This document shows positions 10,295-59,838 of a DNA stretch of 64,000 nt, in pieces. The notes under the pieces are model-generated. The model had not been told where the DNA came from, made no database searches, and saw only the letters and a program-made list of their open reading frames with translations. A program made the position numbers and the translations under genes. How positions within the stretch are numbered: position 1 is the stretch's first letter; each line of letters starts with the position of its first letter. This stretch comes from Bryum argenteum (lineage: Eukaryota; Streptophyta; Bryopsida; Bryales; Bryaceae), in NCBI GenBank assembly GCA_037043015.1, contig CM073329.1, forward strand, positions 5,100,648 to 5,164,647, written 5' to 3'.

Positions 10295-15984
<5,690 letters not shown>

Positions 15985-18900
15985 GCTCTTTAGTACGTAA
16001 ACTTTTTAGTCCCACCTCACCCAAGTTCTACCTCCTGGGGCATATAGGTCAAATACTTAACCCTTTCCTGCCAAATGTAACGCCACCACGACCATCTCAA
16101 CCATTCACTTGGATGCCAATGCAGATTTTAGAGCAACTCTAAATCCACCATGAATGACCCCTCATTCCAAAATAGTATCTACATTATAATAAAAGGTGAG
16201 TTTAGGCTGACTATATTTAGGCTTATTATATTTGATAAATTGATTAAAGCGCAATTTGTAATGATCACAACTTGAACATTCAAAAAGCTCAACCGCCTTA
16301 TCCAAACTTACATACCTGTGTATTTCTTTCACTATAAAAGAACTTCTATTCAATAGATGTAATGAATTGTGTCATTGACTTCTCACCTTAGAACAAAACG
16401 TTATGATCTTTAGTCAGAGATGAAATTTTTTTATGAAGCAAGGTAGGGAATGGCAAACACTAGCAATGCTCGAATCAATAATTACCACCCTCCTTTAAGT
16501 ATTTATTGATCCCCTGCACCAAAAAACTTACAAATTCGTGTCAATTCAAGTATACAATATTTACATTTGTAGCTCTTTAAACAAGACCACATCCCTAAAT
16601 ATGATGTATAATTGCTCTCATTTAGCTCTCGAATCACTAAAAGGATTGGTTCTCATAGAGTATCTTTGTAAGGTTTTGTTGCTACACTTATGATGATTCT
16701 TAGAACTTATTTCAAATATCATCAAGGTCAATTTGCAAATTTTAGATATAAGTAGGAGGTCATGTACACATCTTAAATGAAAAAAGTTCTCATTTGTAGT
16801 TTTTAATCAATTTGCACTATATTTACATATATATTGCCTTTATGTCTCACCAAAATGAAATGTCAAAAATGTACCTCCCGAAATTCGTAAGCTAAAACCA
16901 ATGTGTACTAAGAGTTGGAGCAATTGTAAGTCATATGTGCATCTTCATTCAACAAAATATCAAAGTAAATGTATCATTAATTTGTAAGAATAGTACAGAG
17001 AACATGAGCTCTCTAACTCAATTTTACTCCAAGTCTCTTGCATTTATTACATGTTATTAAAGTACAACTAATGAAAGGAAATTGGCCCATTGATGTTTAA
17101 TAACAACTCAATGATGACTAATAAATCTTGAGATTAAAAATAAATAAATTTATATCACGTCCTTTTTTCACCTTAAAATCTATATACTTTTTCTACCTTA
17201 CAATCCAAAAACTTTGGCATTTATTTTTTGCCACCCTTGCCCTAAAGCTGTAATAAACTCATATTAGTTTTCCATAAAAAAATTCATAATAGTAAATGGC
17301 TGTCAATTATCATTTAGAGTGTTTTAACTTTCTCAAATTTATACGACACAAAGACACCTACTTTTTATTGTTTAAGATTAAAGAACAATGATTATGTTGT
17401 TTTGCACATTGCAGCCAATGATATTGTAAGGTATAACCAATCCATACAAGCATATGTATACCATCAATAACTACTTTGTATAGTCAAGAGTATATGTCAT
17501 TAAGTTCTTAATGCAAGATCATTAAATAACTATCTTGACTTCCATTTATATAGTGAGAAGTTTGTGATGACTTTATAAAAATCAAATACATCTTAGTTAT
17601 CCAATTCACTATAACCAACCATAGTTTAGAGAGAGTTTATTAGAATCAAACCCATTTTCAAAGTTTTCATGTAATTTATAGCACCTATTTCCTACGCATT
17701 CATAACTATTTTGACTTTATATAGTATCAAGTCTATTTTTTTAATAAATTCTTCAAGAACCCTTGATCTGATATACTATCTCCAAAGTCCTCATTGAGAC
17801 CACCCAACAATTTGTTTTTTCATAACCATGACTAGAGATCTTGTTCTTCTTTCTTGTTTCATCTACAAATTATACTAATACAAGAGCGTAGAAATGGATT
17901 CGTGATTGAAATTTGAATATAAAACAAAAAAGTCTAACACATTCACACCCGAATTCAACTTAAAACTTTTCGTACACAAAGGATCTCATATCCTAAAGTA
18001 TAACTTTGTGAACTCAATTTATGAAATACTTTATACATAATTCAAAATATCAATACCAACTTAAACCCACCACTATCACATACATCGTTATAACCTTGCT
18101 CCATATTAATTACCTAGCTATATTTAATTTTTCAACCATGAACTGTGAAAATTCTTGAATGACCATGAAACATCAACTTGGAAAAAATCCAACAAAGATG
18201 AAAATGTCACTCCTTGTACTACAAACATACAACAAACAATTAATATTGGAACTCAGAATGTTTAATTTCAGTTCTATGGATGGTGTAAGAGTCAATGAAA
18301 AACTATAGGATAAGTCTATAGAACCTTATCAGTAGTTCATAAGCTTCAAGTACCATAAAAAACATATGTAAATTTCCCTAACAGATCGAAAACTAGTTCA
18401 ATTTTCCAATGCCTCGGTTGCCACGCCAACGAAGGAGGAGCTGCAACCGATGCATCATTCAAAAAACAAAAATTAAATTATTGCAGATAGAATGGAGAGT
18501 GACTGCGCTATTGTTCGATGTCAGTAAGCAACAAACGATGCGGCAAAATGTAACAACACATTCAAACTAAAACTTACATTCATCAGAGGAGCAATTTCTC
18601 TATGAAAAAAAAATGATGGTCTAGCTCAACAATCGGTGAGTATTTGTATGGAAAAAAAGGGTTTGGTCCATTCACAAGCGCCCCATTCAAGGAAGTGCCC
18701 CATTCAAGGAATAGTACAATTGATAAGGTATAGAGTCACTCATTCCCTTCCAACTAGAGTCACCTATATTTTCAAATTGTGAGATGTATCGTTATCCCTT
18801 TTTTGAACATTTTGTTAAATTCCACAAATCAAGAATATTTCTCTTCTTGGTGCCTCTACCTTAGTACTTCTAAACTTTCCATTAGGTACCAATAAAAACA

Positions 18901-24959: not shown

Positions 24960-26790
24960 TCAAAAAACTGAAATCAGAGTGTGCACCAAGATCATAAAAA
25001 TCGAACACAAAAACTCCACAAATGAAAATACGAAATTGAGAACGCAAATGCAAGCACAGTTAGTTTTACAAAAAAGCTGAATGCAAAGTCTGCCGTAATG
25101 CCATACAGATCTCTTGTGAACTGTTTGAATGATGTCTGTCACTCCAGTCATGTGAACTAGGATTGCTACTGCAAAACGAAGCAACCCTTGCTCGTCGTTG
25201 ACAGGTTCAGCTCCTATCAAACTGGTCTTACAGAACAGGACTCGCAGCTTCTTCTGATTCAAAGGCACTAGAGAGGCATCAACTTCCAAGGAGTCATGTA
25301 ACATATATTCCAGCGACTCAAGCGATGAATCAGAATTGACTTTCCGCTGCTAGTCCGGCTGTTTCAACGCCTGTTTTCTTGTGCAGGTCACTCAATTCGT
25401 AGGCGACCTCTAGCTGTACCGAACCTGCATCTTTCAATGAAGCTTATCATGGTCAACTCAGCAAGCATTCTTGCGCTGAACCCTGCCTTTTTCGATATAG
25501 CAAACAAATGATGTCCGCTTGGTTCTGGATTGACAGTTGAGTAGATTTACTTTGAAGGATCGATGATCATGCCCTCACCGGAAATTCTGGTAAATTGCAT
25601 CTACCTGCAACAACATACTAAGTGGTGTTACTCCAGGTAAAGAGCCGGGGTAAACAAAAACAATAACGAAATTCTTTGGTATCTCCATTTGTTGATCGCT
25701 GGATTTATGAACCGCATGATCTGATTTGTTGTTAAAGTATGAATCATCTCGAGTATGATGCACAGATTCTTTTTAAAAAACACCTGTTCTGTATATATGA
25801 TTATATCAGGTACGGATGTTACTATTAACCATAAAGTATCCCGAATGTGAAATCATTAAATGTGAAAAAAGCACTCACCTTCTTGAGAAAGACCTCATTG
25901 CGTAAATGGGAGAGTATCAATTGTCGATATCCAGAGGTTGAAAACCGGGAAAGCTTTCCGAGGCCGCCTTCAAGGTCTTACGACTGCATCACCAGAAGAG
26001 CATTGGAAACGAAACTAGCACTCAGGAAAATAGTGCAAGGTACATCGATGGAATGATCTGACAGAGATGAAAGCAGATCGTACCTGCTGCTTAGAGTGTT
26101 TGATGTGGATCAACAGCAAAGTGAACCTCTCGCACGATTGAGCTGCCGCTCAATCTTTCGATGGTCACTCGATGTCTCGGGAATCACAATTCTCACCATC
26201 ACCATTCTGGCAATGTCTCCGAACTGATTCGATAGTTTCTCTGTTCTCTGTCAGTTTCCTTTTCTCACAGAGTCTGTTGCAGAAAACGACGGTGTTGGAA
26301 TATCAACTCTTACAGAGCATGGAGAGGCAAGAACTCACAGCGGGAGAAGTAACAAGGGTCACCATCTTACCTCCAGACAGACCTTGTTCTCTTAATCAGT
26401 GCCAAAACATTTGCGAATACACTATGAGTCTGAAGAACATCATCTACTGTCTCTCTCCTTGACAACGACACTAAATTGAAACGAAAGACATGAAGTTCTA
26501 CAGTATATCGCTATCGTCTCCCCGGCCAATATATATCAAGAGTCGTTACTACTAACAGCACCAATGAGGACGATCTATCGATGTGGGAATTGAAAAGCGT
26601 ACCTCTGTAAATATTCCTCTGTCTGACACCATTTTCGAGGTGGGTTGCCAGGATACAAATCTGCTTCAACAAAAGCATCGTCAGCAGGAACATGCTTTGA
26701 ACAATAGGGACAGCGAGACTGGACGACTAGATCGTCCTCACGGCAGAACTTTGTTGTAGAAGCCCTTCCATATTCACGAGCTAATCGTCA
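24960..26790 (-). pseudogene. Decayed coding-like segments downstream of TIR-kinase A
   Basis: Several minus-strand stretches keep a reading frame shared with copy B although neither copy gives one complete gene. They include about 26770-26600 (QSRCPYCSKHVPADDAF, a CxxC zinc-ribbon-like motif), about 26465-26375 (VLQTHSVFANVLAL), about 26085-25930 (VRSAFISVRSF, then broken), about 25440-25345, and 25304-24960 (open, 114 codons, LVHMTGVTDII). A 230-base stretch encoding a membrane-like segment in B is missing here. They may be remnants of a second gene or 3' exons of the TIR-kinase. Function unknown. Confidence 0.35.
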
Positions 26791-26876
26791 TGGGCGATGG
26801 GGGGAGGACCGCCATGGGAAGGCTGTCGATGTGTCCTCGGTGATGGGTTCAGGGTAACTGTCAGCGTAAACAGGAC

Positions 26877-29604
26877 TCAAATGAATACATTTCTTCTGCC
26901 ATTACAGAGCCAAAAGATAGATGTTAATGTGCTCCAAATCCCTTTTCTTGGAAGCTCTCCTCTTATTCTGGAATGTTCAATTCCCAAATTCTCCATTCTT
27001 GTCCTCCCCATGCGCCATCTCCTAAAAAATTCCGACACATCTTCATCCAAAACTCTCCAAAATTTAAGCGTAATTTCCTTCCGAATAAGTTCAAAATCTG
27101 GTCGGTGTTCAGGGTCAGGATGCCAGCACTTCTCGATCAGCTCTTTCCAGGAAGCAGAAATGTAGTCTGGAAACGATGGCCGCTGTCCTGCACAAATTAA
27201 TTCCACCACTTCCGCAGACTTTATATCTCCTTCAAAGGGACATTTCCCAGTCAGAATCTCATACACGGTCATCCCAAAACTGAAGACATCGGCAGGCCAT
27301 TTGTACGTGCAGTCCTCTTTCTTGGCATGTAGCTCGGGAGCCATGTAAGCTGTGGTCCCCTGCTTTCTTGTGTGGCAATTGGACGCATCTCTACCTCGCA
27401 CCTTAGCTGATCCAAAGTCGATCAGTTTCACCACATAGTACGTCTCCCCACCTTCAATCTGCCTTATTCTCCTCTTCGCACTTACAAGAATGTTCGCAGG
27501 TTTTAAATCCCGGTGCAACACTCTGCACTCTCGCAGATGGATCATGGCTTCAACGATTTGAAGTATAATATCTGCTGATACAGATTGGGAGAATGGCATC
27601 CCACCATGTCCTCGAGCCGATCGAGCCGATCTTATCAACTGGCGAAGATCTTGTTCCATGTGCTCTGTCACAAGATACCCGGACTCCTGCTCCTCATCAT
27701 ATGCACACGCGTACAAGTTGACCACATTGGGGTGCTGAACGCTTGCCAGGATACCCCCTTCTGCTTCCAGATCCTTCTTTGCATATTCACCTTTGTAAAC
27801 CGCTATGGCGACCTCCAATCCCAACCACTGACATTTCAAGACCTGCTTGAAAGAACCTTTTGCAACACAGTCTTTGAATGAAAACTCCAGCTTTCCGGGA
27901 ATCCAACACCATTCTGGAAGCAAACCCGGTGTACTTGTCGATGCATCACTTTGGAGCCTCTTCCTGAGGAGGGTATCAAGCACTTCCTGATGATCTGACC
28001 CGCTTTCCAGCTTGTCTAAAAGATATGACCGATCTTCGATGTTGGCAACTTCAAAAGAGGAAGTCCTCAGCGGAGGACTTACTCTATCTTTCAACGGAGG
28101 TTCAAATGCAATCGAATCTTGTAACCAAAATCGGACCATGTCACATGAAAAATCTAAATCACGAGCTACAAGAGCAAATTTGGAGTCGCTTGCGGCACAT
28201 GATGCGGGTAGAAACACAGAAAGGGCAGCTAACTTCCAATCCTTCTCAGCACAACGGTAGAGTAAGTCCTCAGCGGCCGCCACATTACACAAAAATCTGT
28301 CGAGCTCAGCTTCAATCTTTAACCAGCGGCTACCGGCATAGAACAACGTCGACGACGACGACTCTGCCAAAGAGTAACGTCTTGATGATTGAAGAATACT
28401 CTCCAATATCTTAGTAGATACTTCCTGGATCTTTGTAATGAGGCACTGACTTTGGGAAAAGCAAATCACCACCTGGCTCCGAAACTTTTCCAAAGTATCC
28501 TGGATTCTTAGGACGGTTCGAAGAATTGGGGCTTGACCCCCGGTAAGACGCACAACTGTGGAATGCTTGTCTGGCACCACTTCGCAAACGGCATCGATTA
28601 TCAGCTTTTGATCAATCACTTCCGTATTTCTATCGAAGTATAAGCCATCTATCAAAAAAAAAAGTTCTCCCAAAGCCCTCGACCATTCGTTTTTCTCAGT
28701 GACGGAAACATCAGCCCATTGATGCCACTCTTCCAACCATGCGTTAGGTAATTGTTGCCATTCCTCTGCTGTGACACCAAGGAAAACTGGAATGATCCTC
28801 ACCTTCCTCTTGGATGTTACAATTTCTCCCAATTCCCACAAGCAATACTTTGAGAACAGATACTCTGAAGATATAATAACCACAACAACTTGAGACTTAT
28901 CTATCCCAGTGACCACATGTCGACCGCGGCTCCTGATACGAGCACACAATTGCTCCTTGAAATTTTTCAGGATTATGTGGGAAGTAATAAAGACTCCGGG
29001 AAAGATTTCATGTTCATCCAACCTGCACATATCCACACTTACAACGTTTCGTTACCTCCGTTCAAGTATGCAACTCCAACGTTTCACTGTAATGAAGTAT
29101 CGAACAGCTAAATGAAGGCTCCACCAACCTCTGTGGATCTTCGAGGTCCATAAGCATCGTACCGCCACCTTCCATGTTTCAGATCCTTGCACACTTCTTG
29201 TGTTCAAAGTAAAAACATCGATATGTAGCACCTATGCTAACTTCAAATCAACAACCTGCAAGAAGTAGCAGTCGCTGAGTATTTCGTACGTCATTACTCA
29301 AGATGCCCTTTGAACAAGCATTCAAGAAACTTCTAACTCTACTATCTGAAATTCAGAGTCGATCTCAGATGTTGAATCACGAAGACAATCACTAGCATTG
29401 CCACGGAGCAAAGCGAACCATCCATGAAGTCGGAACACTATGATTTGAGCTTGTAGGTTTAAAGCTCTGAGGGAATGCGCCTCACTACGAATAGGACACA
29501 CTAAAAGTTGCTGGCGGTGGCGGTTCCTTGAGGTTTCTAAAGTCTGAGCCGTGCTGAACATGGACGACTATGTCAGAATCATTCTCATCGTCTACTTGAG
29601 CCAT
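26877..29604 (-). CDS. TIR - helical bundle - protein kinase protein, copy A
   Basis: Main exon 29022-26877; a short first exon 29604-29489 (starting MAQVDDENDSD) joins it in phase. If unspliced, translation could start at ATG 29030 (717 aa; spliced about 753). Numbered from 29030: TIR domain ~10-157 (GVFITSH, KNFKEQLCARIRSRG, VVVVIISSEY, SKYCLWELGEI, RIIPVFLG), with Glu66 at the position of the catalytic NADase glutamate in plant TIRs but no normal BB-loop; Cys/Leu-rich helical region ~165-290 (DLLYRCAEKDWKLAAL) resembling the DUF1221/HeLo bundle of plant MLKL-type proteins; kinase ~383-655 with HRDLKPAN (Asp508), DFG (538), APE, but VAIA instead of VAIK; C-terminal motif IWSTLTSIFWLC. Probably an immune or cell-death signalling protein; this is inference. 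No NB-ARC or LRR is present. Confidence 0.85.
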
Positions 29605-30620
29605 CCAACCCTAATGAAGAAGCATACACCATGCACTGCCGCGCACTTACCGACACAGTAGATCTCTTTGTCATGCACCAGGTACCCGATCGAGCCACGA
29701 CGGCGAAACTCTCGATTCCGCAACTGTCTCAAATTCTCTTGTCTCTTGCCTCAAAATCTCTTGTCTCGTCTCAGAATCTCCCAGAGCGCAATCAATCATG
29801 CATACTCTGATTCTCCGATACCACGGGAGATTCAACCGACGCTTGATTGAACTGGATGCGCCTGCGATCTCCACCTCCAGTGCAAGCGATCGAAGCTTGC
29901 TCCCGCACAAATCGGCGAACACCAAGTCCTGCTCTGAACCGCTAATTCTCTGCGGAGATTCCAGGCTTCGAGACTGATGGCCCCATCACTGTAGTCGGCA
30001 AACACTGTAGTCAACGGAGGCATTCGTCGGGCCAAAAGGGCAACGGACTACGGAGCCTCCATAACTGCTCAAGGTCAAATTGACAAGCTCTTCTCTCTCT
30101 CTCTCTTTTTCTTTTAATTGGAATAGAAAATCAATGTATCTATCAATTGGAGAAGAAACATCTAAACCGAAGCAATAGCTTGCCCGGAGAAGCAAAAACT
30201 GGGCACCCATGTCTGCAAGGATGAACACAAGGGAGATAGGTGCAGCAAGTGGAGACCTTCTCTCCTGACACATGGAAAAATGACTATGCCACATGGTAGA
30301 TTGCATTTTCTTATTTCGTTTTCCTATTTCTCAAAGTAGGAATGGTCCAATTTTTGCCAGGTCGCCAACTGTATGAAGTGGGAAAAAGAGGGGTAATAAT
30401 TTTACTTATTTCTAGGAGGGACAGGCTCATGTGTTTCTTGTGGAATTGTGGATGGGAAGGTGAGAATATAAAGAGGAGTATTGTGGGTGTCTTGAAAATC
30501 TCGTACATGTGTACAATATGTAGGAATTTGAATCAATTTTAAATTTGTAATCATAAAATTAGGATTTACCTAAAATAAGTTATGAATTTTGGAAGTAGAA
30601 TACGTAAAGGTTCCAAGAAT
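29605..30620. promoter_or_regulatory. Upstream leader/promoter region of TIR-kinase A
   Basis: Homologous to 38252-39100 in copy B. It contains the telobox-like aaccctaa at about 29608 and two copies of a 16-bp unit beginning cactgtagtc at about 29987-30012, which is expanded to about four copies in B. Minus-strand frames at 29671-29925 and 29986-30306 differ between the copies and are not accepted as genes. Confidence 0.4.
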
Positions 30621-32039
30621 CGCTCACTTTGTCACCATGAGTACGTTGAATATTGAAGGTGGCACCTTCGAATTTATGCACTACCTCACATACTAGTGAT
30701 TTTACACCTAGAAATCTATAATAATCTGTGGGATCGTTATCATGATGAAAAATAAAATTCTCCTCTCTTGAATCATGCATGTGTATAGTATTCATAATTC
30801 CATCTCTAAAATATCATGTTACACAAACTTATCCATGTTGACTTCCCTTCTATAAGACAAAGGTTGTCAACTCCCTTCCAAGTCATACATTCCCAAACCA
30901 TACTGATATTTCCACCTCCAAATTTGATTATAGGTTGCACATGCTGATCTAAAAGATGTTATCCTCTCTTCTTTTAACAATAGGAATCTCCCATGTAATC
31001 CAAATAAATTGAATTTGACTTATCTAAAAAAAACCACATAACTCCTATCTATCCAACTTGCATGCCTATACTTCTTTGTCCATGCATGTCAAACATGGTT
31101 TTTGCTTCTTTGACGGGAATGGCTTTTCAATTTTCACTCATGCTATCAATTCTTGCATCTAAAGACATCTTCTAATTGTATCATCACTCAAATCCAATCC
31201 TTGAGATCGCATTTCTCTACTCACTCTTGCAGTTGTACAATTAGGTGGTGCATTCAATAGCCTTACAATCATATGATCACAAGGACCACTGAAAGTTCAA
31301 AGATGTAGTCTCTTCCTCATGCATATGAAGAATTAGCTCACGTTCAGCAAGAGAACTTCTAGGAGCCATAGCTAATCAACAACAATCTTAATCACAATGA
31401 CTTTTGAAATGTAAGAGGACTTCTTAAATACATGTTGATCATTAATTTTTTTAGATGCACAAATTGTGATTGGACAACCCATTATTGACACATCAAGAAC
31501 TGTTGCCCTTGCAAGTGGCTCTATGTCAATTGTGGTACTCTTTCTAGTTTATAAATGGCTATTTACTTATAAATAGTTGAAAATCAGCACCTACCAACCA
31601 AAGTTAACAAGTATTACTACTAAATCAAGATTGTCATTCTTGTCTGAACACTTTTGCTGACCACTGTATATAGATTGAGTCACCTTATAATACCTTTTAT
31701 TTGTGAAAGTTATTGCAAGTAGTAGAACATCTTTATATAATGTGAATTTCAATTACTTAGTGTAATACAACCTAATTACAATATTTAGTGTAGTAAACAT
31801 TTGGGTACAAACTTTGAACATAACTAAGATTGACCCCTTATAAGAATACATGTAATCTAGTCACACAATCTTCTTAACTCATGACTCAAGCTTGATTATT
31901 CCAAGACTTGTTACAAACAAATGAGTGTGCATTCACGCCTTTCTACTTGACATGAAATGATTGCTTTCCAACATCTTTTAATACACCACAATCATACTTA
32001 CGGATGCTATGAGTATAATAATCTACTTCGATGCCACGA
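30621..32039. other. Spacer between the two duplication copies
   Basis: AT-rich, no intact gene. It includes the transposase fossil at 30990-31369. The stretch at about 30640-30725 (tgaaggtggca, gattttacacctaga) is homologous to the region just after the GT14 gene at 41105-41175, which shows that homology with the copy-B side resumes beyond that gene. Confidence 0.5.
30990..31369 (-). pseudogene. Fossil of a Tc1/mariner-like transposase N-terminus
   Basis: The minus strand from ATG 31369 reads MAPRSSLAERELILHMHEE, resembling the first helix-turn-helix of Tc1/mariner transposases. After a stop and a frame change comes TARVSREMRSQGLDLSDDT, then IEKPFPSKKQKP: the order and spacing of the second helix-turn-helix and linker of that family. 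Several in-frame stops and no DDE catalytic part. A dead fragment in the spacer between the two duplication copies. Confidence 0.5.
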
Positions 32040-33499
32040 TTCTTAAACCCCATAATGCTTGATCACTATTGGACCTGCTACAAGACCAAATTTTTGTAAT
32101 TTATACCCATGAATGCAAGAACATAATAGGCTAATTGTACTCGTATGGGTGTGAAGCTCCACATGCAGTCAGCCTTGTAGGTTGTCCCAGGTAGACAGCT
32201 CCTTACCGACAATTCAAACTCCACGAGGAGTAATGATTGCTAAATCCCCCTCCCCCAAATGTCCCTGCTGCCACTTAGTGATTAGGACGGGCACCCAGAC
32301 CGTAGTGTCTCACTCTCTTTGTCTATGTATTATGTGTTGTATTGCTCTCTAAGATTAGCAGTTGTATGTGTCATGTGTCAGTGGAAGCAAGTCCGATTCT
32401 GTAAGCTCCATGCATGAGCTTTTTGTAAAAGTAAAACTTCAATTGAGCTTTCTTTGTAACATTTCATTTGGCAATTGAGTATGAACCAATCTGTGCATGT
32501 CTGTCATAAAACGTACCTTGAGTCTTCGTTCTAGAAGTTGAGAGAATCTCGTTTGTGAAATAACCTCTTGGATAGACAATGAGTTGGTAAAGTTTATGCG
32601 ATGAGAGAATAAGAGCGACTAGAGTAACCAATTCATCATTTGCAGCTACATCGTTCTTTGGAAATTTTGTAACTCTTTCTCTCATGCATGCATTTGAGCA
32701 TTTGCTTTCTTGCTTGTAAGTTAAATCACACCGATGAGAGTGAGGTGTCTATATCCTCTAAATCCAAGATGAAATGGTGGATATGATATGCCACTTACGT
32801 ACCAACAACTTTAGTCTAAAATTAATCTCTATGCAACTTTCAAAAATCAATATCATTTCCAAATATTTGATAATGAAAAAGTCAAGAACAACTTTGCAAG
32901 CTGCACTAGAAGAGGAAATGTTCATATCCAAACACAAAGAATCCTGTGCAACGGTACGTCCTCTAAGGCTGACCTTGACCTTTGAAGTTGTTACATGCCA
33001 CGATAATTTCAATTTCTATAATCAGATTGAAATGACTTAAGTAAATAAAACATTATCTATGGCCTTGTAAACAATGTACTTCCTCTAAGGTACGTCCTCT
33101 AAAGCTGTCCTTGACCTTTGAAGTTGTTACATGCCACACTGATGTATATTTCAAGGTCAGGTTTTCAAGGTCACCTATATTCAAAAACAACATTAAATAA
33201 CTCTAATGGCTCCAAAGAAAGTGGTAAAAACTAAAATTACTAACACGTCAAGGACATATCTATCATATCCACCAATTCCTCGTAGATTTTGAGATCACAG
33301 CAAACTACTTCAACAAATCTATTTGCATGATTGGCAGTGCTTGGTACGGTACAGTCAATTTCAAAACTTTGGGATGCGCTTGAAAATCTGAACTCAAAGT
33401 ATGCACCAGCCTACACAAATCAAACACAAGAACCCCACATCTAAGATATGAAAATGAGAATGCACAAGAAAAAGACGTCGATATTTCTATTGCAACCGC

Positions 33500-35459
33500 A
33501 GTCACGTTGTCTCAAAGTTGCCGTAATGCCAAACAAACCTCCTGTGGACTAGTTGATGTCTATCACTTCAGTCATGTGGACTGCAACATATACTGCAAAG
33601 GTAATGACGAATCAACGATGTAACAAGGTTGACATTCCGCTGCCAATCTGGCCTACGACGCCTCTTTTTCTTGCCGCCCAAAATGTGCATGCAGTTGATT
33701 GGCAAGTTCTCTCTGTACCGAATCTACAACTTCCAATGAAGCTTATCATGGTTTCAACTCAGCAAGCATTCTCCACTGAACCATGCCCAAGAGTATCTCT
33801 TTCGATCTGAAACAGCAGTCAACCAAACGATCATAACTTCATGTCCGCTATAGCCAGCTACGTACGTAAGCTCCCCACCGACAAGCAGGCGGGATCCGAT
33901 GATATATGGTTGAGCTAGAAGCACCAGCTTTCCTTACTGATTGTCTGCATCTACCTGCAACACCATACTGAACTGATGTTACTCCATGTGAAGTTACACT
34001 AGGCTCATTCTTAGACCAGAAAACGTGTCTTAAAAGTTCGCATGAGATAGAACGAGGTAGATAATCAACACAGAATTCTTTTAAAAAGTCCACTCGATAA
34101 TATATATCGCTATAAATATGAACCGCTCATGATCTACTTCGTCGGTTGAAAATTGAGTCATCTCGAGTACCGGTAAATATAGTACACAAACTTTAATAAG
34201 AAAAAGAAACTTTCTGTTTATATTAAGTATTTACGATACTCTTGAGTCATACAAAAATCAACAACTTCCCCAACTGTAAAAACATTGAATGCGAAAAATG
34301 TACTCGTCTTATCAAGGTATAGGAAAAGTGATGCGGTAATGGGAAAGTATCACTGACCCATCAATATCTACTAGAGGTTGGAGACCAGGTACGGTCTCCA
34401 AGGCCGCCTTCAATGTAAGGTCTAACAACTGCACATGCTCACCACGAGAGCATTGCAAACGAAACAAAGTTAGCAAGTGCTCAGGAAAATAGTGCAAGGC
34501 ACATCGACGGAATGATCTGACAGAGATGAAAGCAGATCGTACCTGCTGCTTAGAGTTTCGATGTGGATTTCGAAGTAAACCTCTCGCATGATTGAGCTGC
34601 TGCTCAATCTTTCGATGGTGTAAGGTCACTCGATCTCTCGGGAATTACAATTCTCACCATCACCATTCTGGCAATGTCTCAGAACTGATTCGATAGTTTC
34701 TCTGTTCTCTGTCAGTTTCCTTTTCTCCAGAGTCTGTTCCAAGAAGCGAAGGTGTTGGAATATCAACTCTTACAGAGCATAGAGAGACACCCAACCTTGG
34801 CCTCACAGCCGAAGAAGTAACCACGGACACTCACCATCTCTAAGTACATAGAGACAGACCTTACTCTCCTATTCAGCGCCAAAACATTTGCGAATGCATT
34901 ATGAGTCTGTAGAACTTCATCTATAATTGTCTTCTCGCTGATCACGAAACAACAATGAAATGGAAAACATCAAGTTTTACAGGATGTCACTATCGCCTCT
35001 TGTTACTACTAACAACATCAAAGTGGGTATTGAATTTAAGCTTACCTGTGTTGATATTCCCCTGTCTATCTCCATTTTCGAGGTGGTTGCCGCGATCCAC
35101 ATCTGCTACAACAAAAGCAAGGTCAGCAGGAACATGCTTTGAACAACGGGGACAGCGAGACTGAACGACTGGCAAGCACAATCATGGTGGACTACTGTGT
35201 GATAGTCGTAGAAGCGTAGTGCAAAATTGGCGAAAACAATAGCCATGACTGAGCCCACCGTTGTAGTTGCCAGATCCATTGATGCCTTCTGCCACCACTC
35301 CATTGTGCACTTTGTACCTGTAGATCGAACACAGCGAGAAAATCTCCCCAGGACAGATGTATCCATGGACAAGATCGCAGAGACGAGTCGTCGGATCATC
35401 ACACTGGGGATCTCCATGGCAGAACTTTGTTGTAAAAGTCCTTCCATATTCACGAGCAA
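33500..35459 (-). pseudogene. Coding-like segments downstream of TIR-kinase B
   Basis: Minus-strand segments with frames shared with copy A: 35447-~35190 (from MEGLLQQSS; includes a hydrophobic run ATTTVGSVMAIVFANFAL, a possible membrane segment), ~35175-35055 (QSRCPRCSKHVPADLAF, CxxC motif, ending at a good donor), ~34937-34838 (VLQTHNAFANVLAL), ~34590-34362 (VRSAFISVRSF, about 75 codons open) and 33800-33500 (broken). They could be a separate small gene with a zinc-ribbon-like and membrane segment, or its remains. I could not join all of them in phase. The intact zinc-ribbon frame in both copies suggests past selection. Confidence 0.35.
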
Positions 35460-35477
35460 ACCGTAACCTACGCTCGA

Positions 35478-38251
35478 CTATCCCTCTGAATCACTTTCTG
35501 ACATGGGAGGCTGAGGAGAATATTGAGTTTCTTCCCGGAAGTTTCTGTCACTACAGAGCCAAAAAATAGATTTGACTGCACTCCAGATCAATCTCTTCTT
35601 AGAAGCAAACTGTGTTCTTGGAAGCTCTATTTCTATTCCGGAAATCTCTATTCTTGAAATTTCCGAATGTTCCTCCGGAATGCATCTCATAATTCCCTCC
35701 CGAAGGAATTCAAAACTTGGTCGGAGATTAGGGTCGTGTTCCCAGCACGCCTCGATCAACGCTTTCCAAAAACTAGGGATGTAGACTGAAAATGATGGCC
35801 GCTCTCCTCTACAAACTCTTTCTTCCACTTCCCCTAACTTCATATCATTTCCGAAGGGACATTCCCCAGTTAGAATCTCATAGATGGTCATCCCAAAACT
35901 GTAGACATCGGCAGGCCATTTGTACGTGCAGTCCTCTTTCATGGCATGTAGCTCGGGAGCCATATAAAGTGTGGACCCCCGCTTTCTTGTGTGGCAATTG
36001 GACGCATCTCTACCTCGCACCGTAGCTAATCCAAAGTCGATTAATTTCACCACATAGTACATCTCTCCACCTTCGATCAACCCTATCCTCTTCTTTGCAC
36101 TTACAAGAATGTTCGCAGGTTTTAAATCCCGGTGCAACACTCTGCACTCTCGCAGATGGATCATGGCTTCAACGATTTGCAATATGATATCTCTTGATAC
36201 AGACACAGAGAATGGCATCCCACCATGTCCTCGAGCCGACCGAGCCGATCTTATCAACTGGCGAAGATCTTGTTCCATGAACTCTGTCACAAGGTACCCT
36301 GCCTCCTTCTCCTCATCATATGCACACGCGTACAAGTTGACCACATTGGGGTGCTGAACCCTTGCGAGGATACCCGCTTCTGCCTCCAGATCCTTCTTTG
36401 CATACTCACCTTTGTATACGGCTATGGCGACCTCCAATTCTAACCACTGACATCTGAAGACAGACTTGGAAGAACCGGATGCAACATAGTCGGCGTATGA
36501 AACCTCCAGCTTTCCGGGAATCCAACACCATTCTGAAAGCAAACCCGGTGTACTTGTCGATGCATCATTTTGGAGCCTCTTTCTGAGGAGGGTATCAAGC
36601 ATTCCCCGGTGAACTGACCCGCTTTCCAGCTTGTGTAATATAGTTGACCGATCCTGCCTGTTGGCAACATCAAAAGGTAGGGACAGAAGCGGAGGTTCAT
36701 AAGCAATCGGACCTGCTTCTAACCAAGAAAGGAGCATGTGATATGAAGAATCTAAATCACGAGCTACAAGCGCGAATTTGGAGTCGCTTGCAGCACATGA
36801 TGCTGGTAGAAACACAGAAAGGGCAGCTAACTTCCAATCCTTCTCAGCACAACGGTAGAGTAAGTCCTCAGCGGCCGCCACATTACACAAAAATCTGTCG
36901 AGCTCAGCTGTAATCTTTTCCCAGCGGCTACCGGCATAGAACGACGACGACGACGACGACTCTGCCGAAGAGGCACCTCTTGATGATTGAAGAATCCTCT
37001 CCAATATCTTGCTAGATACTTCCTGGATCTTTGTAATGAGGCACTGACTTTGGGAAGAACAAATCACCACCTGGCTCCGAAACTCTTCCGAAGTATTCTG
37101 GATCCTTAGTACGGTTCCAAGAATTGGGGCTTGACCTCTAGTAAGATGCTCAAGTGTGGAATACTTGTCTGGCACCACTGCACAAACGGCATCGACTATC
37201 ATTGTTAGATCAATCACTTGATTCGCAAAGCATAAGCCATCTCCCGGTTTAAGTTTTTTCAAAGCCCTCGACCATTCTTGTTTCTCAGTGAGGGAAGCAT
37301 CAGCCCAATTATGCCACTCTCCAAAACATACGCTACGCAAACTTTTCCATTGCTTTGGTCCGACAGTAAGGAACACTGGAATGATCCTTATAATCCTCCT
37401 GGATCTTACAATTTCTCCCAATTCCCTCATGCAATACCTTGAGAGCAGATACTCTGTAGTTATAATAACTACGACAACTCGACACTTATCTATTTTATTG
37501 ACCACGTGTAGACCACGGCTCTTTATTCGAGCACACAATTGCCCCTTCAATCTCTCCTGGAATAGATTGGAAGTAACAAAGACTCCAGAAAAGATTTCAT
37601 CTTCATCCAACCTGCACATATCCACAATTACAACATTTCGTTACCTCCATTCAGAGTATGCACTTCCCACGTCTCGCTGTAATAACAAAAGTATCGATTA
37701 GCCAAATGAAGGCTCCACCAACCTCATTGATTCTTCAAGGTCCATAAGCATCGTACCGCCACCTTCCATATTTCAGATTTTGTGTTCAAATTGAAAACGC
37801 TGGAAAGAAGCTACTTGAAAGAAGCCACTTGGTTTGAGCTAAGCCAACTTCATATCAACAACCTGCACACAAGCATGTACAGAAGCAGCAGCAATCAGTC
37901 GATGTTTGTGGTCCGCAACCTCCTTCGTCATTACTCAAGATGTACGTAGAACAAGCACTTGAGAAACTTCTAACTCTACTATCTGAAAAATAATCAAGTT
38001 AGTAAATTTCGAATCTTAACTCAAGAAGACATTCACACCTGAAACCACGAGCATCGCCACGGAGCGAAACGCATCATCCATGAAGTCGGAACACTATGAT
38101 TTGAGCTTCTAGGTTTGAAGCTCTGAGGGAACGCGCCTCACTACGAACAGGGCACATTCAAAGTTGCTGACGGAGGCGGTTCCTTGAGGTTTCCAAAGTC
38201 TGAGCCATGGTGAACATGGTCAGAATCATTCCCATCGTCTACTTGAGCCAT
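35478..38251 (-). CDS. TIR - helical bundle - protein kinase protein, copy B
   Basis: Tandem paralogue of the gene at 26877-29604 with the same order. Main exon 37611-35478; short first exon 38251-38145 (MAQVDDGNDSD) joins in phase; alternative start ATG 37619 (713 aa). TIR: GVFVTS, RYCMRELGEI (Glu retained), RIIPVFL; helical region with DLLYRCAEKDWKLAAL; kinase with VAIA in place of VAIK, HRDLKPAN, DFGLA and MAPEL; C-terminal motif RLIWSAVKSIFWLC followed by a Ser/Glu-rich tail absent from A. The kinase is slightly more canonical than in A (DFGLA against DFGSA). Frame open throughout. Likely signalling role; regulation unknown, although both copies share an upstream leader. Confidence 0.85.
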
Positions 38252-39845
38252 CCAACCCTAATGAAGAAGCATACACCATGCACAGCCGCGCACTTACCGA
38301 CACTGTCACGCACCAGGTACCCGATCGAGCCACGACGGCGAAACTCTCGATTCCGCAACTGTCTCAAATTCTCTTGTCTCTTGCCTCAAAATCTCTTGTC
38401 TCCCGTCTCAGAATCTCCCAGAGCGCAATCAATCATGCATACTCCGATTCTCCGATACCACGGGAGATTCAACCGACGCTTGATTGAACTGGATGCGCCT
38501 GCGATCTCCACCTCCAGTGCAAGCGATCGATCGAAGCTTGCCCCCGCACAAATCGGCGAACACCAAGTCCTGCTCTGAACCGCCAAATCTCGGCGGAGAT
38601 TCCAGGCTCCGAGACTGATGGGCCCCATCGCTGTATCGGCACACACTGTAGTCGGCAGACACTGTAGTCTGCAGACACTGTAGTCTGCAGACACTGTAGT
38701 CAACGGAGGCATTCGTCGGTCCAAAAGGGCAACGGACTACGAAGTCCGTTCAGGGAGGCTCCATAACTGCTCAAGGTCAAATTGACAAGCTCTTCTTTCT
38801 TTTCTTTTCTTATTTTTTTCTCTTTTTTAAGAAAAAAATAACTTATGTATCAATTGGAGAAGAATACATCTAAGCCATAGCAGTAACTTGCATGGAGAAG
38901 CAACAACTAGACACTCATGTGTGCAATGGTGGATGGGAAGGTGAGAATGTAGGTAGGAGAATTGTTGACTTCATTGCGAGTGTCTTGAAAACCTCGTACA
39001 TGTGTAATGTATGTAGGAATTTGGACCAATTGTAAATTTGTAATCAAAGAATATGGATTCACCTTATGAATTTCTTAAGTGGAACACGTAAAAGTGTCGT
39101 GTACCGATTAGGATTAAAACGGACTTGATTGTCATGCGACTCTAGACCTAAGAATTCAAGTTCGGACCAGATGTCGAGTGGCTCCCAAGCGTGACGAATC
39201 GTGTTTCACCGGCCACAGCGTATGCATCAAAACTTCAGTTTTATGTTCACCCACATGCTATAGCAATATAAGAATACATATTCAAGTGGCTCCTTCTTAG
39301 TATTTGTCATGGTTTGTAAAGATTTTATTACACAGTGAATCTGAAAAGGGCTGAGCAATTCCAAACGAATATTCGCAAATACTTCCCGTTGTTGCCTAAT
39401 GGTTAGGCCCATCCCTTTCATTACGATAGAACTTTGACACTAGCTTCTTCAATACTTAACCTCTACTCCCTGGATAGGTTTAGGATCTTAAAACTTTTAA
39501 TTTAGTGTTTTTATGTCTTTATGTTTTTAACCTTGAAGAACTTGATTTTTCTAAAAATAGAAGGTAGTTGTAAAATTACCAAAGTAAAATGTTCATTAAG
39601 TCGTAATAGATGTTAGTTTAAGTATGTGAAGTAAGAGTGTTTTATAATATTGACAATAGTGAAACTTCCACTTTGAGAGACAAGTAAAATGTTTTCTTTT
39701 CTCGAACTATTAGTAAGCATGATGGTCTGTTGGTATATAAATGTTTTCTAAATAGGTGGACTTCAATTCATGAGTAGATAGAAGTATAAACAAAAGTGAA
39801 GGTTTGATTCAAGCTCTCTAGAAGGTCTTGTCAAAATTTCAGAGT
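38252..39845. other. Leader of TIR-kinase B and spacer before the GT14 gene
   Basis: 38252-39100 is duplication copy B leader/promoter, with telobox-like aaccctaa near 38255. 39100-39845 is not matched in copy A and probably holds the GT14 promoter and leader. No other gene recognised. Confidence 0.4.
38644..38701. repeat. 16-bp tandem repeat upstream of TIR-kinase B
   Basis: Three units of cactgtagtcNgcaga (38644-38659, 38660-38675, 38676-38691) and a partial fourth. Unit junctions create the palindromic ctgcag. Copy A has only two units at the corresponding place (29987-30012). Confidence 0.85.
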
Positions 39846-41087
39846 ATGGATACTTTCTTTAGAAGAGTACTACCCATGAATCAAAAGTGGTGGTTACCAC
39901 TTTTAGTTTCTTTACTCATAATTTTTGTAGGAACTTCAATTGTCTTGCCAAATCTCAGGCCTTCATTGTGTGTAAGTAAAGATGCTACTACTTATGTATT
40001 TCCAGAGGTTCCAAATGCACCTATTGAATCCAAGCCCGTTCTTCCTCGACTCGCATATCTAATCTCGGGAACTCAAGGCGATGGATTGCGAATCCAAAGA
40101 ACGTTACAAGCTCTTTACCATCCAAGAAATTACTATGTGCTCCATCTTGATCTCAAGGCATCATCAGAAGAAAGAGAAGACCTGAGTAGATACGTAAGCG
40201 ATCATCCTCTTTTCCAGAAGGTGAAGAATGTACTGATGATAAAGAAGGCCAATTTAGTGACATATAGAGGTCCAACTATGGTTTCCGAAACCCTTCATGG
40301 TGCGGCGGTACTACTAAAGAATTTTACCGATTGGGATTGGTTCATCAACTTGAGTGCTTCCGACTACCCTCTCATGACCCAAGATGACATTTTGCATGTA
40401 TTTTCATCCTTGCCGCGAGACCTCAACTTTATTGAACACACTACAGACCTCGGATGGAAATATCACGGAAGAGCACAACCTATCATTGTTGATCCAGCAC
40501 TATACTTAACTCACGGTATTGATGGAAACATCGTGGAGACAAATTTTCTTCGAGACCTTCCGACATCATTTACTCTATTTACGGGATCTGCATGGACGGT
40601 CCTTTCAAGATCTTTCATGGAGTATACAATTATGGGTTGGGACAATCAACCACGTACTTTGCTCATGTACTACACAAATTTTGTGTCGACACCCGAAGGA
40701 TACTTCCACACGGTCATTTGTAACAGCGACGAGTACAAACATATGACGGTGAACCATGATCTACACTATATTACTTGGGATATACCGCCGAAGCAACATC
40801 CATTATCTTTGACTACGAAGGATTTTGCAAACATGACTAAAAGTGGAGCTCCATTTGCTAGAAAATTCAGAAAAGAAGATCCGGTATTGACACAAATTGA
40901 TAAAGAATTGTTGGGACGGGCACCTAGGAATTTTACTCCCGGAGGTTGGTGTGCAAATACATTGTGTATAGAAATAGGGGATTTGGATTTACTACAACCA
41001 GGTCCAGGTGCTGAAAGGTTTCAAAGTTTAATAGGTCCTTTGTTGATAAAATCAAAACAAGGTCATGATCAATGTGTCATTTTGTAG
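39846..41087 (+). CDS. GLCAT14: GT14 family beta-glucuronosyltransferase-like protein, intronless
   Basis: Type II Golgi glycosyltransferase of CAZy family GT14 (core-2/I-branching superfamily). Plant GLCAT14 members add glucuronic acid to arabinogalactan-protein galactans. One uninterrupted frame, 413 residues from ATG 39846 (the frame is open six codons upstream without ATG). A short cytosolic N-terminus, a signal anchor (WWLPLLVSLLIIFVGTSIV), then the catalytic domain with PRLAYLISGTQGD, NYYVLHLDLKA, FINLSASDYPLMTQDD, TGSAWTVLSR and NHDLHYITWD; C-terminal GGWC...CIE. Length fits (Arabidopsis GLCAT14A about 447). Plant homologues that I recall have introns, so a retrocopy origin is possible, but the protein is intact and presumably functional. 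Close specificity is inference. Confidence 0.9.
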   Translation: MDTFFRRVLPMNQKWWLPLLVSLLIIFVGTSIVLPNLRPSLCVSKDATTYVFPEVPNAPIESKPVLPRLAYLISGTQGDGLRIQRTLQALYHPRNYYVLHLDLKASSEEREDLSRYVSDHPLFQKVKNVLMIKKANLVTYRGPTMVSETLHGAAVLLKNFTDWDWFINLSASDYPLMTQDDILHVFSSLPRDLNFIEHTTDLGWKYHGRAQPIIVDPALYLTHGIDGNIVETNFLRDLPTSFTLFTGSAWTVLSRSFMEYTIMGWDNQPRTLLMYYTNFVSTPEGYFHTVICNSDEYKHMTVNHDLHYITWDIPPKQHPLSLTTKDFANMTKSGAPFARKFRKEDPVLTQIDKELLGRAPRNFTPGGWCANTLCIEIGDLDLLQPGPGAERFQSLIGPLLIKSKQGHDQCVIL

Positions 41088-41606: not shown

Positions 41607-44600
41607 TCATTGTTTCACGATCAGCGCGTCTCGCCCGGGCCCCACGCCGATGTACTGGCACGGCAAACCCACGAGCTCTTCTATCCTCTCCACGTATCTC
41701 TGCGCCGCGCTCGGCAGGTCCTCGTACGACCTCACCCCCGTGATGTCCTCCTTCCATCCCTCCAAAGTCTCGTACTCCACCTGCCCAACACGCAAGCATT
41801 AATTAAAATGACCCTCGCGACCCACAAGTACATGCAGAACTCCCAAGCAAGCTCACAAGCAGCAGTCAGAAAGCCGCACTCACAAGCAGGAACTCACAAG
41901 CCAGCACACACAAGCAAGCACTCATAAGTGGCACTCACCTCCACTTGCTCCAGGATGGACAGGTCTGATGGAAAAGATCTCAGCTTCTCCCCTGAGGGTG
42001 ATCTGTATGCAATGCCCAGCTTCACCTCACTCAGGCCTGACAACACGTCCAGCTTCGTGAGATTGATGGCAGTGAAGCCGTTGATCGTGCAGGCGAAGTT
42101 GAGCGCCACAATGTCCAGCCATCCGCACCGACGGGGCCTTCCTGTCGTCGTTCCCCACTCGAACCCTGCCTTTCGAAGATCCTCGCCTTCATCCCCGAAG
42201 AGCTCCGTTGGGTATGGTCCTGCCCCTACTCGTGTTGTGTATGCTTTTGCCTGCACAGGTCGAGCTACGCTTGTCACAAATTTTGTACCCATAAGGTTAA
42301 ATGGAAATGAATATACTATTGCAGCAACGTACCACGCCGACGATGTCGCCCAGGCGGTTCGGTGCCATGCCCAGCCCAGTGCAGATTCCGCCAACCGATG
42401 GGTTGGAGGAGGTCACGAAAGGGTACGTGCCGAAGTCGATATCCAGCATCGTTGCTTGACCCCCCTCGATCAAAATTCGCTTGCCTTCCGCATACGCGTT
42501 GTTCACGTAGTCAACAGTGTCCACGATGTAAGGCTCCAGCCTCTCCGCGTACTGCACGTACTTCTCCATCTCCGCATCCACCTCGGCGGACGAGTACTTG
42601 AAGTCCTTGAATCGTGCGGCCGCATCGCGGAACAGCACGTCCAGCTTCTCCCGGAACGTGTCCAGGTGCCGCAGGTCACCAACTCGGATGCCGTTCCGGA
42701 TGGCCTTGCTCGCGTAGCACGGCCCGATTCCCCGCTTCGTTGTCCCGATCATCTGCCCTGCTAGCTCTGCTTCCCGCAGCCCGTCCACCTCTTGGTGAAG
42801 GTTGAATAGCAGGTGGGCGCGGTCTGAGACGAGCAGACGCCCCGTACAGTTCACACCCTTCGCCTCCAGGTTGTCGATCTCCTTAAAAAACCCTGGAAGG
42901 TGGATCACAACTCCGTTCCCAACCACGCAAGTGGCCTTCTCATTCAAGATCCCTGACGGCACCAAGTGCAAAGCAAACTTCTCACCCTCGTTGTTGTAGA
43001 TTGTGTGACCGGCATTTGCGCCTCCCTGAATCACAACAGGGTACATCATACATGTGCGCTACACCAACTAGTAACCTCATCTCAAACTAGAAGCCTGAAA
43101 CTGCCGAAACTATCTATCGGAAAATTCCACCACGTTACTCGCTACTTCTCAAACACGAGCGTTTGAAATGTAACATATGCATGCACGTGAAGGAATTCAG
43201 GTCCGGCATCCACAGCCAAGTCCAATGATAGAAGGCACTCAAACCCAAGCATGAATTTAGCAGCAGATGCAGATACAATCACAAGCATGTGTCGCTCAAG
43301 CATGCCCACTTATGAGCATGATTCAGGTGAAACATCGAGGGGTGATCATCACACGCTACATTCGAACAAAGAACTACGCAAAAGGCATCAGATGCAGAAA
43401 TGTCATCCACACATGCCTGTAACAGGTCATGTTTCAGGTGAATCATCGAGTAGTGATCATCATGTGCCACACTTGAAACACTTACACATAGACGATAGAC
43501 TTATCTAACGGGCAATTCTATAGCGTCAGATGCAGAAGTGTCGCTCATCCGTGCTCAAGAATGAACACATTACGGCTGAATCTCGAGAGATGATCATCAT
43601 GCGCTGAACCTATGTTACTCACAAAGACAACCGACTATACTAAAGCTTAATTTGAAAAGTATGGATGAAGCGTCAGATGCAGAAATGTCGATCATACATG
43701 CCCACGCATGAACATAATTCAGGTGAATCATCGAAAGGTGATCATCATGCGCTACACCACCTCTTTTCTGCTAAGACCGTGCTGTCACCCTATTACCGGA
43801 CCATATGACCATCGCTTTCCAGGTCCTGCTTTTATGCTAAAGCAACTCTTCAACGCACAGTACAAAAAAAGAGATATAACTGCAATGCATGCATTGGAAC
43901 AGGCATTACGATAGATCACAAGAGAAAAACTTGCAAGATGAACGAGGACCTAAAGCAAGTCTCCGCTAAAGTACATTCCAAGAAATGCAGCTGCAATACT
44001 TTCATACACAATCGAATTGATTCGAAAATAGGGATGTAGCGTCAGATGCAGAAATGTCGCTCATTTATGCCCACGAATGAACACAATTCAGGTGAATCAT
44101 CGAAAGGTGATCATCATACGCTACAGCGCCTCCTTTCTACTAAAAAGACGATTTCGAATTGCAATCACCCGTACTACCGAACCACAAGACCATCGTAAAA
44201 AGCAACTGAATAGTATCCTTTAAAGCAACTAAAAAGCATCTTGAGAAGCAACTCTCCAGCGTGCAGAAATCTCATTCATCACACAGCAGGTTCGCACACG
44301 AATGAAAAAAGAGGAATTCAAAAGCAAAAGAATGTCTCGAAACCGGCATTGCGATAGAAAACGTAAAAGAGAGAGATTCGCATGATGAAGAGGGACCTAA
44401 AGCAAGACTCCCAGAGAACACATTCCAAGAAATTCAGCTGAAATTTTCTAACATCAAACTAAAGAGCGCGATATCATGAAACAACATTCCAGTAACTCGT
44501 GAGCACGAAAATCGCACGCATTGCTAAGGATCACGCGCAAAAGACAAGAATTCCGACCAAAAAAAAACACATTCCAAGAAATTCAGCACAAGAGGCGCAA

Positions 44601-49662: not shown

Positions 49663-56641
<6,979 letters not shown>

Positions 56642-57950: not shown

Positions 57951-58429
57951 ATGAAACGAAATTAGATATAACAGGAAGCACATGAAGTGAAAAGCGAATG
58001 AATTAGTTTAAACAAAGATGATGAAGTGGAAAGCATAGTGAAAATAAGATTTTGAAATGGGAAGCGATAGAAATATGATTCAAGTACACTCTTCAAGTAC
58101 CATGTGAATTTTCACTTTTTTCAATTGGAAAATATCATTTTACCAATTAAAACTATTTGGAACAAAAAAAAATTTAATTAGAAAGATTTTCTAATAATGC
58201 GTTTAGAGGTTAAGGAGCAAAATTAAGTATTAATCTGTGCTTATGGAAGTAACATGTTGGTAACATGATGTGGTATTAATATAAATCATTAAAACATCTA
58301 TATATCAAAGCTTCGAATGAAGCAACCAAACTTTAATGGGTACTAACTTTCCCACAACCAATTGATACAAAGATATTGTAAAAACTTACTAAAAATATGA
58401 AAGAAATACTATCAATCTACCTTATTTAT

Positions 58430-58915
58430 CACCATCTTCATCACCATCATCATTGCCTTCTTCATCACTATCATCATTGTCGTCTTCATCACTATCATCA
58501 TTGTCGTCTTCATCACTATCATCATTGCCCTCTTCATCACTATCTTCTTTCTCCTCTTCATCACTATCTTCATTCTTCTCTTCATCACCTTCTTGATCGC
58601 TGTCTTCATCACCCTCTTCATCACCTTCTTGAACGCTGTCTTCATCACCCTCTTCATCACCTTCTTGAACGCTGTCTTCATCACCATCTTCATTGCATCC
58701 TTCATCACCATCTTCATTGCTCTCTTGATCACCGTCTTCAACACTATCTTCATCACCATCTCCATAATCTTCTTCACCACCTTCTTCAACGCCATCTTCA
58801 CCACTCTCTTCATAACCTTCTTCATTGCTCTCTTCGTCACCTTCTTCAATGCCCTCTTCATCACCTTCTTCAACGCTATCTTCATCACCCTCTTCGTTAC
58901 TATCTTCATTGCCGG
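58430..58915. repeat. Low-complexity tandem repeat, (Asp/Glu)-rich if read on minus strand
   Basis: About 480 bases of imperfect cttcatcactatcatc-type units. Because of the trinucleotide-like structure three frames are open: minus 58422-59207 (Asp/Glu/Ser/Gly-rich), another minus frame (Lys/Met/Val-rich) and plus 58397-58939 (His/Leu/Cys-rich). No flanking domain or splice-supported gene is evident, so I call it repeat DNA; a real acidic low-complexity protein on the minus strand cannot be excluded. Confidence 0.7.
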
Positions 58916-58929
58916 GGAAACCACCGGTG

Positions 58930-59838
58930 TGAGCGTTGAGCGGTGAGCGGTGAGCGGTAAAGTTTGAGCGGTAAGTAATAAAAATTTCCAAAGTTAATGG
59001 CCCTATTACCATGGAATGTGTGGGTCTGAAATTACGAAATTGTTTTTTATACGCATAAAAGTACCCAAAACCGTGGATATTGGTCCTAAATCCAATTATT
59101 TTCATGGTATTGGGGTCATACAATATTTCAGAAATTATCCACATTTGCAAGCTTAAATAAACTTTAATTAAATTATGGGCTGGCATCATCATGTGTAACC
59201 AATACAATTCAAATCATATCCAATATCTATACCTTCACTTGTGGCTTGCCATTAGGTAATCAATAAGTTTTATTTTATCGATCTTAATATTTAGAGACCA
59301 ATTAGGGCTGACGTCACCAAATTCCTATTTCACTTGTCACAATTATATGTAAATGCTTCGGAATATATAATCTGAAATTTATAACTAGAGGTCGTCTTCT
59401 TGTCTCTTCTTGTAAGGCGTAGAGAAAGACATTCACGTGGCATTGTAGTGGTCCGAGTTCGATTCTCCTCGGCCTCGTTTGAGCGTTGCATTGCGTCTTT
59501 AAGCCGCTATCTTGAGCTATACAAATACCAGCCTATAGCCCCTACCAACATTGGCAAGATTCAATCTCACCAATGGAAAAAAAAACCTTCTAAAGCTTTT
59601 AGTCCGCATTGAGTTTAGAACTTAAATATTAGATAGACGGATGCATTGAAATTGGAGTTGAAGAAGTTACATAAAAATTAGAGCTGACGTCACCATTAAA
59701 CGATAATCACGATAAATAAAAATATAAAACCATATATATTGAAAAACACATATAGATAATATATAAGTAATAGGTCATGTTAAACTACGAATGTATGGCG
59801 CTACCATATCCTATACCTATCAGAAAACAAATCACACA
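58930..59838. other. Intergenic, AT-rich
   Basis: Begins with a few gagcggt repeats (58930-58975), then AT-rich DNA with the SINE-like stretch and the TGACGTCA-containing direct repeat. No gene recognised. The last ~200 bases are probably 3' UTR of the minus-strand gene ending at 59839. Confidence 0.4.
59390..59585 (+). mobile_element. tRNA-like sequence, possible SINE
   Basis: taaggcgtagagaaagac (59412-59429) resembles the D-arm region of Leu/Ser tRNAs. About 30 bases on, gagttcgattctc contains a perfect Pol III B-box core (GTTCGATTC, 59456-59464). A 9-A run follows at about 59577-59585. No complete cloverleaf can be drawn. This arrangement suggests a tRNA-derived SINE with an A-tail. A near-direct repeat (ctgacgtcacca) lies at 59308-59319 and 59684-59695, but too far out to be a simple target-site duplication. 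Confidence 0.35.

Follow-up and report, generated by a model that had tools for sequence, protein, structure and literature searches.

Two tandem genes for TIR-kinase proteins

The stretch of Bryum argenteum DNA analysed here (assembly GCA_037043015.1, contig CM073329.1, positions 5,100,648 to 5,164,647 of the forward strand; 64,000 nucleotides, hereafter the window) carries on its minus strand two tandem genes, each of which very probably encodes a TIR domain, a middle region and an MLKL-related kinase on one chain. The main exons are open frames of 724 (copy 1) and 720 codons (copy 2) from stop to stop, with no internal stop, and their products, P0001 (718 aa) and P0002 (714 aa), are 72% identical. 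In both copies, Pfam matches to TIR and protein kinase above the curated cut-offs fall in the same frame, and neither NB-ARC nor LRR is present in the Pfam output for either frame (families at E <= 1). The first-pass annotation of this locus had described a TIR domain, a helical segment and a kinase on one chain, without NB-ARC or LRR, and both descriptions were borne out in the two copies, the helicity of the middle region being a prediction from models. The Cys- and Leu-rich motif that it had singled out, DLLYRCAEKDWKLAAL, is unchanged between copy 1 and copy 2. The gene models are as follows.

26877..29051, minus strand: copy 1 main exon (P0001 start at 29033)
29129..29175, minus strand: copy 1, other candidate for the first coding exon (MEGGG...; continues in frame into the main exon)
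29489..29604, minus strand: copy 1, candidate for the first coding exon (MAQVDD...; continues in frame into the main exon)
35478..37640, minus strand: copy 2 main exon (P0002 start at 37622)
37723..37769, minus strand: copy 2, other candidate for the first coding exon (MEGGG...; continues in frame into the main exon)
38145..38251, minus strand: copy 2, candidate for the first coding exon (MAQVDD...; continues in frame into the main exon)

The two copies correspond to a tandem duplication, in which 27071-29184 matches 35690-37778 at 85% nucleotide identity. The duplication also takes in flanking DNA, with several blocks shared between 25.1-30.6 kb and 33.5-39.1 kb. A tblastn search of the 64-kb window with both proteins (E <= 1) returned the two copies and a single further match of 27 residues (E 0.91), and there is therefore no third copy in the window. 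Both candidate first exons splice in phase onto one shared acceptor in both copies, giving predicted proteins of 753 and 746 residues (MAQVDD..., copies 1 and 2) or 730 and 726 residues (MEGGG...). Position 38251, where the first-pass annotation ended its feature, is the ATG of the candidate upstream exon of copy 2. The downstream regions (26380-26860 and 34850-35480) are likewise duplicated, and about 230 bases of copy 2 are missing from copy 1.

The TIR domain

28557..29012, minus strand: copy 1 TIR (P0001 residues 8-159; E67 kept; short ahead of helix B)
37155..37601, minus strand: copy 2 TIR (P0002 residues 8-156; E67 kept)

The Pfam TIR scores were 33.9 bits for copy 1 and 31.3 bits for copy 2 (cut-off 21.3), and the matches were partial, covering profile positions 44-135 and 48-150, respectively, of 179. 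With HMMER, a two-copy profile matched L6 (1.8e-8), SNC1 (2.1e-8) and 7vu8 (also about 2e-8) in the PDB, where all but one of the 18 distinct sequences with E <= 1 were TIR proteins. Residue E67 lies within YCLWEL in copy 1 and YCMREL in copy 2, aligned to CLMEL/CLNEL of L6/SNC1, the glutamate of which we take to be the catalytic one. Structure models were built on copy 1, with copy 2 serving only as a second alignment row. In the full-length model, a strand (14-16), a helix (23-35) and a strand (51-53) follow one another, and so onward (predicted local distance difference test, pLDDT, mostly 26-56 here), and helices corresponding to alphaA and alphaE remain.

In this low-confidence model, the TIR domain falls short of the chain by 12-22 residues in all 18 plant TIR rows, as judged from VIA-aligned ranges (for example, 9-158 on RPS4 15-176 and 8-154 on RUN1 23-191). 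In the comparison with L6, the missing residues fall ahead of helix B, where 28 residues precede the anchor in the model and 46 in L6, with 121 following it in each (HMMER puts residue 37 at L6 position 80 and the VIA range is 9-158 on L6 34-201, assuming one 3ozi numbering). Inspection of the two-copy alignment showed residues 25-37 to have the spacing F/L-x3-L-x3-I-x3-G of helix A, a pattern that we take to be typical of TIR domains. On the model, the shortening is most simply explained if strand B and the BB loop have been lost, together with part of helix B. However, HMMER places residues 28-37, gap-free, on the last part of the SNC1 BB loop, unlike the model-based placing of the gap.

The NADase site of plant TIRs is built by BB-loop contacts (PMC9153377; this and the other papers named by PMC number are cited from excerpts) and, since this loop has apparently been lost, a classical NADase function would be less likely here. 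We consider that the TIR domain is probably not a classical NADase. The earlier suggestion that the protein could couple NADase signalling to cell death is thus weakened by the shortening, and the glutamate at the catalytic position, kept in both copies, is what still speaks for it. That glutamate and the gap-free alignment to SNC1 would also fit an active NADase with a BB loop that is present but divergent, or contributed by a partner TIR. The 12-22 residues by which the low-confidence model falls short run counter to this alternative, as do the upstream sequences: none of the six upstream open pieces tested had a Pfam match, and neither candidate first exon resembles a TIR start on inspection. 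We regard this alternative as very unlikely.

The kinase and the pre-kinase segment

27057..27872, minus strand: copy 1 kinase (P0001 residues 388-659; K396 in the Gly-rich loop, A411 at the beta-3 Lys, E425, HRD 507-509, DFG 539-541)
35679..36491, minus strand: copy 2 kinase (P0002 residues 378-648; K386, A401, HRD 497-499, DFG 529-531)
27918..28055, minus strand: copy 1 brace-like segment (P0001 residues 327-372; collinear with the pre-kinase segment of 6ka4)
36537..36674, minus strand: copy 2 brace-like segment (about P0002 residues 317-362; weak for this copy)

The Pfam kinase family PF07714 was matched at 145.5 bits by copy 1 and 135.4 bits by copy 2. In searches of the PDB with copy 1 alone, 6ka4 came first (2.4e-30), followed by a double-kinase EGFR chain (5.6e-29), the score of which is the sum of two 51-bit stretches, by 6lba (7e-28) and, later, by TAK1 (6.5e-22). 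The two-copy profile gave 6ka4 (6.3e-34) and 6lba (1.2e-29), then RIPK1 (9.7e-26). The 6lba entry is titled AtMLKL2, and 6ka4 is entered as F22L4.1 protein, which we take to be an Arabidopsis MLKL. By sequence, Arabidopsis MLKL-type proteins are thus the nearest solved structures to the kinase, in a database that contains few plant kinases and with a ranking that is not a phylogeny. The 6ka4 match to the two-copy profile spans positions 296-655, beginning about 90 positions ahead of the kinase, and the 6lba match begins at position 388. In a pairwise test of the pre-kinase segment, copy 1 (FEVANIEDR...) was equalled by 6 of 2000 shuffles and copy 2 by 186 of 2000.

The motifs HRDLKPAN, DFG and APE are present in both copies, and the residue aligned to the alphaC glutamate is kept in both. 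In an ungapped alignment of copy 1 with TAK1, the VAIK lysine is replaced by an alanine and the third glycine of the Gly-rich loop by a lysine (A411 and K396 in P0001; A401 and K386 in P0002), this loop lysine lying within GSFK/GSSK. Neither change was mentioned in the first-pass annotation. The corresponding WNK1 motif reads GSFK. In WNK1, a lysine from beta-2 stands in for the beta-3 one (PMC4718504), and the kinase described here, with the same arrangement, may therefore be either an enzyme that works in the manner of WNK kinases or a pseudokinase. The kinase is nevertheless closer overall to MLKL, RIPK1 and TAK1, and no WNK was found among the best 60 of 2533 sequences matched by copy 1 or the best 60 of 2387 matched by the two-copy profile.

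The middle region

28116..28538, minus strand: copy 1 predicted four-helix bundle, MLKL HeLo-like (P0001 residues 166-306; low-confidence models)
36714..37136, minus strand: copy 2 predicted helix bundle (P0002 residues 163-303; range transferred from copy 1 through the alignment)

The middle region is predicted to be helical, and the balance of the modelling leans towards a bundle of the HeLo type. In a structure comparison of the middle region (model mean pLDDT 45.3), the AtMLKL2 bundle ranked third, and in a second comparison, with the full-length model (mean pLDDT 33.3), it ranked first. These models are of low confidence, and the identity to AtMLKL2 in the model-based alignments is only 12-13%. 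The DUF1221 family was not matched in the Pfam output. The predicted bundle is not N-terminal, unlike that of plant MLKL, since a TIR domain of about 150 residues precedes it in both copies. The likeness to MLKL proposed in the first-pass annotation thus holds for the kinase, by sequence, with 6ka4 and 6lba on top; it extends weakly to the pre-kinase segment and suggestively to the predicted bundle.

Divergence between the copies

Nonsynonymous (dN) and synonymous (dS) divergence were estimated by NG86 from the 697 of 735 alignment columns that remained once those with gaps had been dropped. The dN/dS values were 0.180/0.228 for the whole protein (ratio 0.79), 0.239/0.195 for the TIR (ratio 1.22), 0.139/0.220 for the kinase and 0.663/1.037 for the C-terminal tail. 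Protein identity was 61.8% for the TIR, 81.8% for the bundle (121/148), 79.9% for the kinase and 33.3% for the C-terminal tail, making the TIR the least alike of the TIR, bundle, brace and kinase, with only the tail diverging more. The windows 181-240, 201-260 and 221-280 had dS values of 0.05, 0.02 and 0.05, and, in the first 640 comparable codons, which exclude the divergent tail, the least divergent 70-codon stretch was equalled by 11 of 2000 shuffles. Gene conversion is therefore likely in the bundle region, and the identity of the bundle cannot be read as the result of selection alone.

A 5' stretch of about 290-300 bases (29638-29931 and 38285-38572) is 98.9-100% identical in 5/5 windows (alignment A4 columns 251-550), exceeding the identity of the coding region, and has a shared GTAAGT donor close to its end (about 29650 and 38297). 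This points either to a conserved leader or to gene conversion in the recent past. Upstream of copy 2, at 38600-38740, there are extra tandem units resembling GACTACAGTGTCTGC, which are fewer in copy 1.

The ratios for the TIR and the whole protein, together with the short TIR, the loss of the beta-3 lysine and the divergent tails, would be expected if the genes were decaying relics of an old fusion between a TIR gene and a kinase gene, losing TIR and kinase activity and expressed weakly or not at all. However, with overall dS at about 0.23, both frames, each longer than 700 codons, have stayed open; 9 of 12 kinase windows show a dN lower than dS; and HRD, DFG, APE, the TIR glutamate and the residue aligned to the alphaC glutamate are kept in both copies. 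We therefore regard decay as quite improbable.

The proteins could also be immune sensors or decoys of the kinase-fusion type, in which the kinase would be the working or bait part and the TIR and helices would be integrated domains that perceive or relay, with no membrane-acting bundle. The divergence of the TIR is what might be expected of a sensor, and the low identity of the bundle to that of AtMLKL2 fits this explanation too. A flowering-plant survey includes TIR-Pkinase among its R-domain combinations (PMC4234491), such that TIR plus kinase as such is already known, and kinase-containing nucleotide-binding leucine-rich repeat proteins (kinase-NLRs) are reported to be expanded in mosses (PMC10952240). 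However, the bundle is the best conserved part of the proteins, although the low dS there suggests gene conversion, and the nearest PDB kinases are of the MLKL type rather than receptor-like kinases, in a database with few plant kinases. On balance, a sensor or decoy seems unlikely.

The rest of the window

A glutamate-receptor-like gene lies at 11242-16005, its ligand-binding region (PF01094) being matched at 13538-14545 and its other exons recognised by inspection. Pfam also identified Vps16 (1908-2861), a Core-2/I-branching glycosyltransferase (39822-41084), adenylosuccinate synthetase (42300-43058) and an NSUN2-like RNA methyltransferase (50345-53736). Several direct repeats, 70-130 bases long and 77-88% identical, are scattered over 43290-44444 in the adenylosuccinate synthetase gene region, and 58382-58993 is a long imperfect tandem repeat with several frames open. 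No Rfam family reached its gathering score over the whole window.

Comparison with known systems and proposed mechanism

The TIR domain resembles those of TIR-type NLRs and TIR-only proteins (L6, SNC1, RPS4) in its significant sequence match, TIR-like model and catalytic-position glutamate; it differs in its shortness and in not being followed by NB-ARC or LRR. Plant MLKLs (AtMLKL2, 6lba; 6ka4) provide the nearest PDB kinases and a pre-kinase segment that is collinear, if weakly so, and have a helical domain ahead of the kinase, the counterpart of which is predicted here, by low-confidence models, to be a four-helix bundle. However, in the Bryum proteins a TIR stands before the bundle, there is no DUF1221 match in Pfam, and HRD and DFG are kept, in contrast to HGE/HGD and GFG in the aligned 6ka4/6lba sequences. 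Pm13 (AelMLKL), an MLKL from a wheat relative, shares the predicted order bundle, brace and kinase, and its kinase is predicted to be functional, but it is described as MLKL_NTD plus kinase, without a TIR, with all key kinase residues and of the receptor-like kinase type (PMC10951266). The moss kinase-NLRs of the PpC24/PpKNL type likewise have an intracellular kinase within an immune-type protein (PMC3991678), but contain NBS and LRR, with the kinase replacing the TIR, a comparison made by description and not by sequence.

We favour, with a probability of about 0.5 for the mechanism in full, a TIR-scaffolded, MLKL-like immune or cell-death switch. Each gene would give rise to one intracellular immune protein composed of a TIR, a helix bundle, a brace and an MLKL-type kinase. 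The TIR would serve as a protein-protein or oligomerisation module rather than as a classical NADase, and the kinase and brace would keep the bundle in check until a TIR-TIR contact or a phosphorylation event released it; the freed bundle would then act at membranes, leading to defence-related cell death. The kinase may retain activity through its WNK-like lysine.

We found no description of a TIR fused to an MLKL-type kinase in the excerpts of open-licence PubMed Central literature covered by our search; as subscription papers and InterPro-type databases lay outside it, public proteomes may already carry an annotation of this architecture. No relatives were found among the pattern-matched stretches in viral (0/2) or prokaryote contigs (0/9), which has no bearing on distribution in plants. 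A survey of land-plant NLR N-termini counted MLKL and TIR-X as NLR-associated proteins, and reported EDS1, the usual TIR relay, to be missing from seed-free plants at large (PMC11218826). EDS1 is also reported to be missing from mosses (PMC11850516), and has been found in some ferns (PMC12512272).

In seed plants, MLKLs are reported to act in TIR-NLR but not coiled-coil (CC) NLR immunity, as separate proteins (PMC9950082); here, TIR and MLKL would be fused in cis. A more specific proposal, which we advance tentatively and consider doubtful, is that the two arms of plant TIR immunity have been joined, with a non-enzymatic TIR lacking the BB loop oligomerising an MLKL-type executioner and a WNK-like kinase acting as a possibly ion-sensitive lock. 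If true, this cis-fusion would be an EDS1-independent path from TIR to membrane damage within one protein. A natural fusion of a TIR to an MLKL-type kinase in a bryophyte would be a "Rosetta stone" hint that TIR and MLKL work together, and would offer a small system for a direct test of the link between them.

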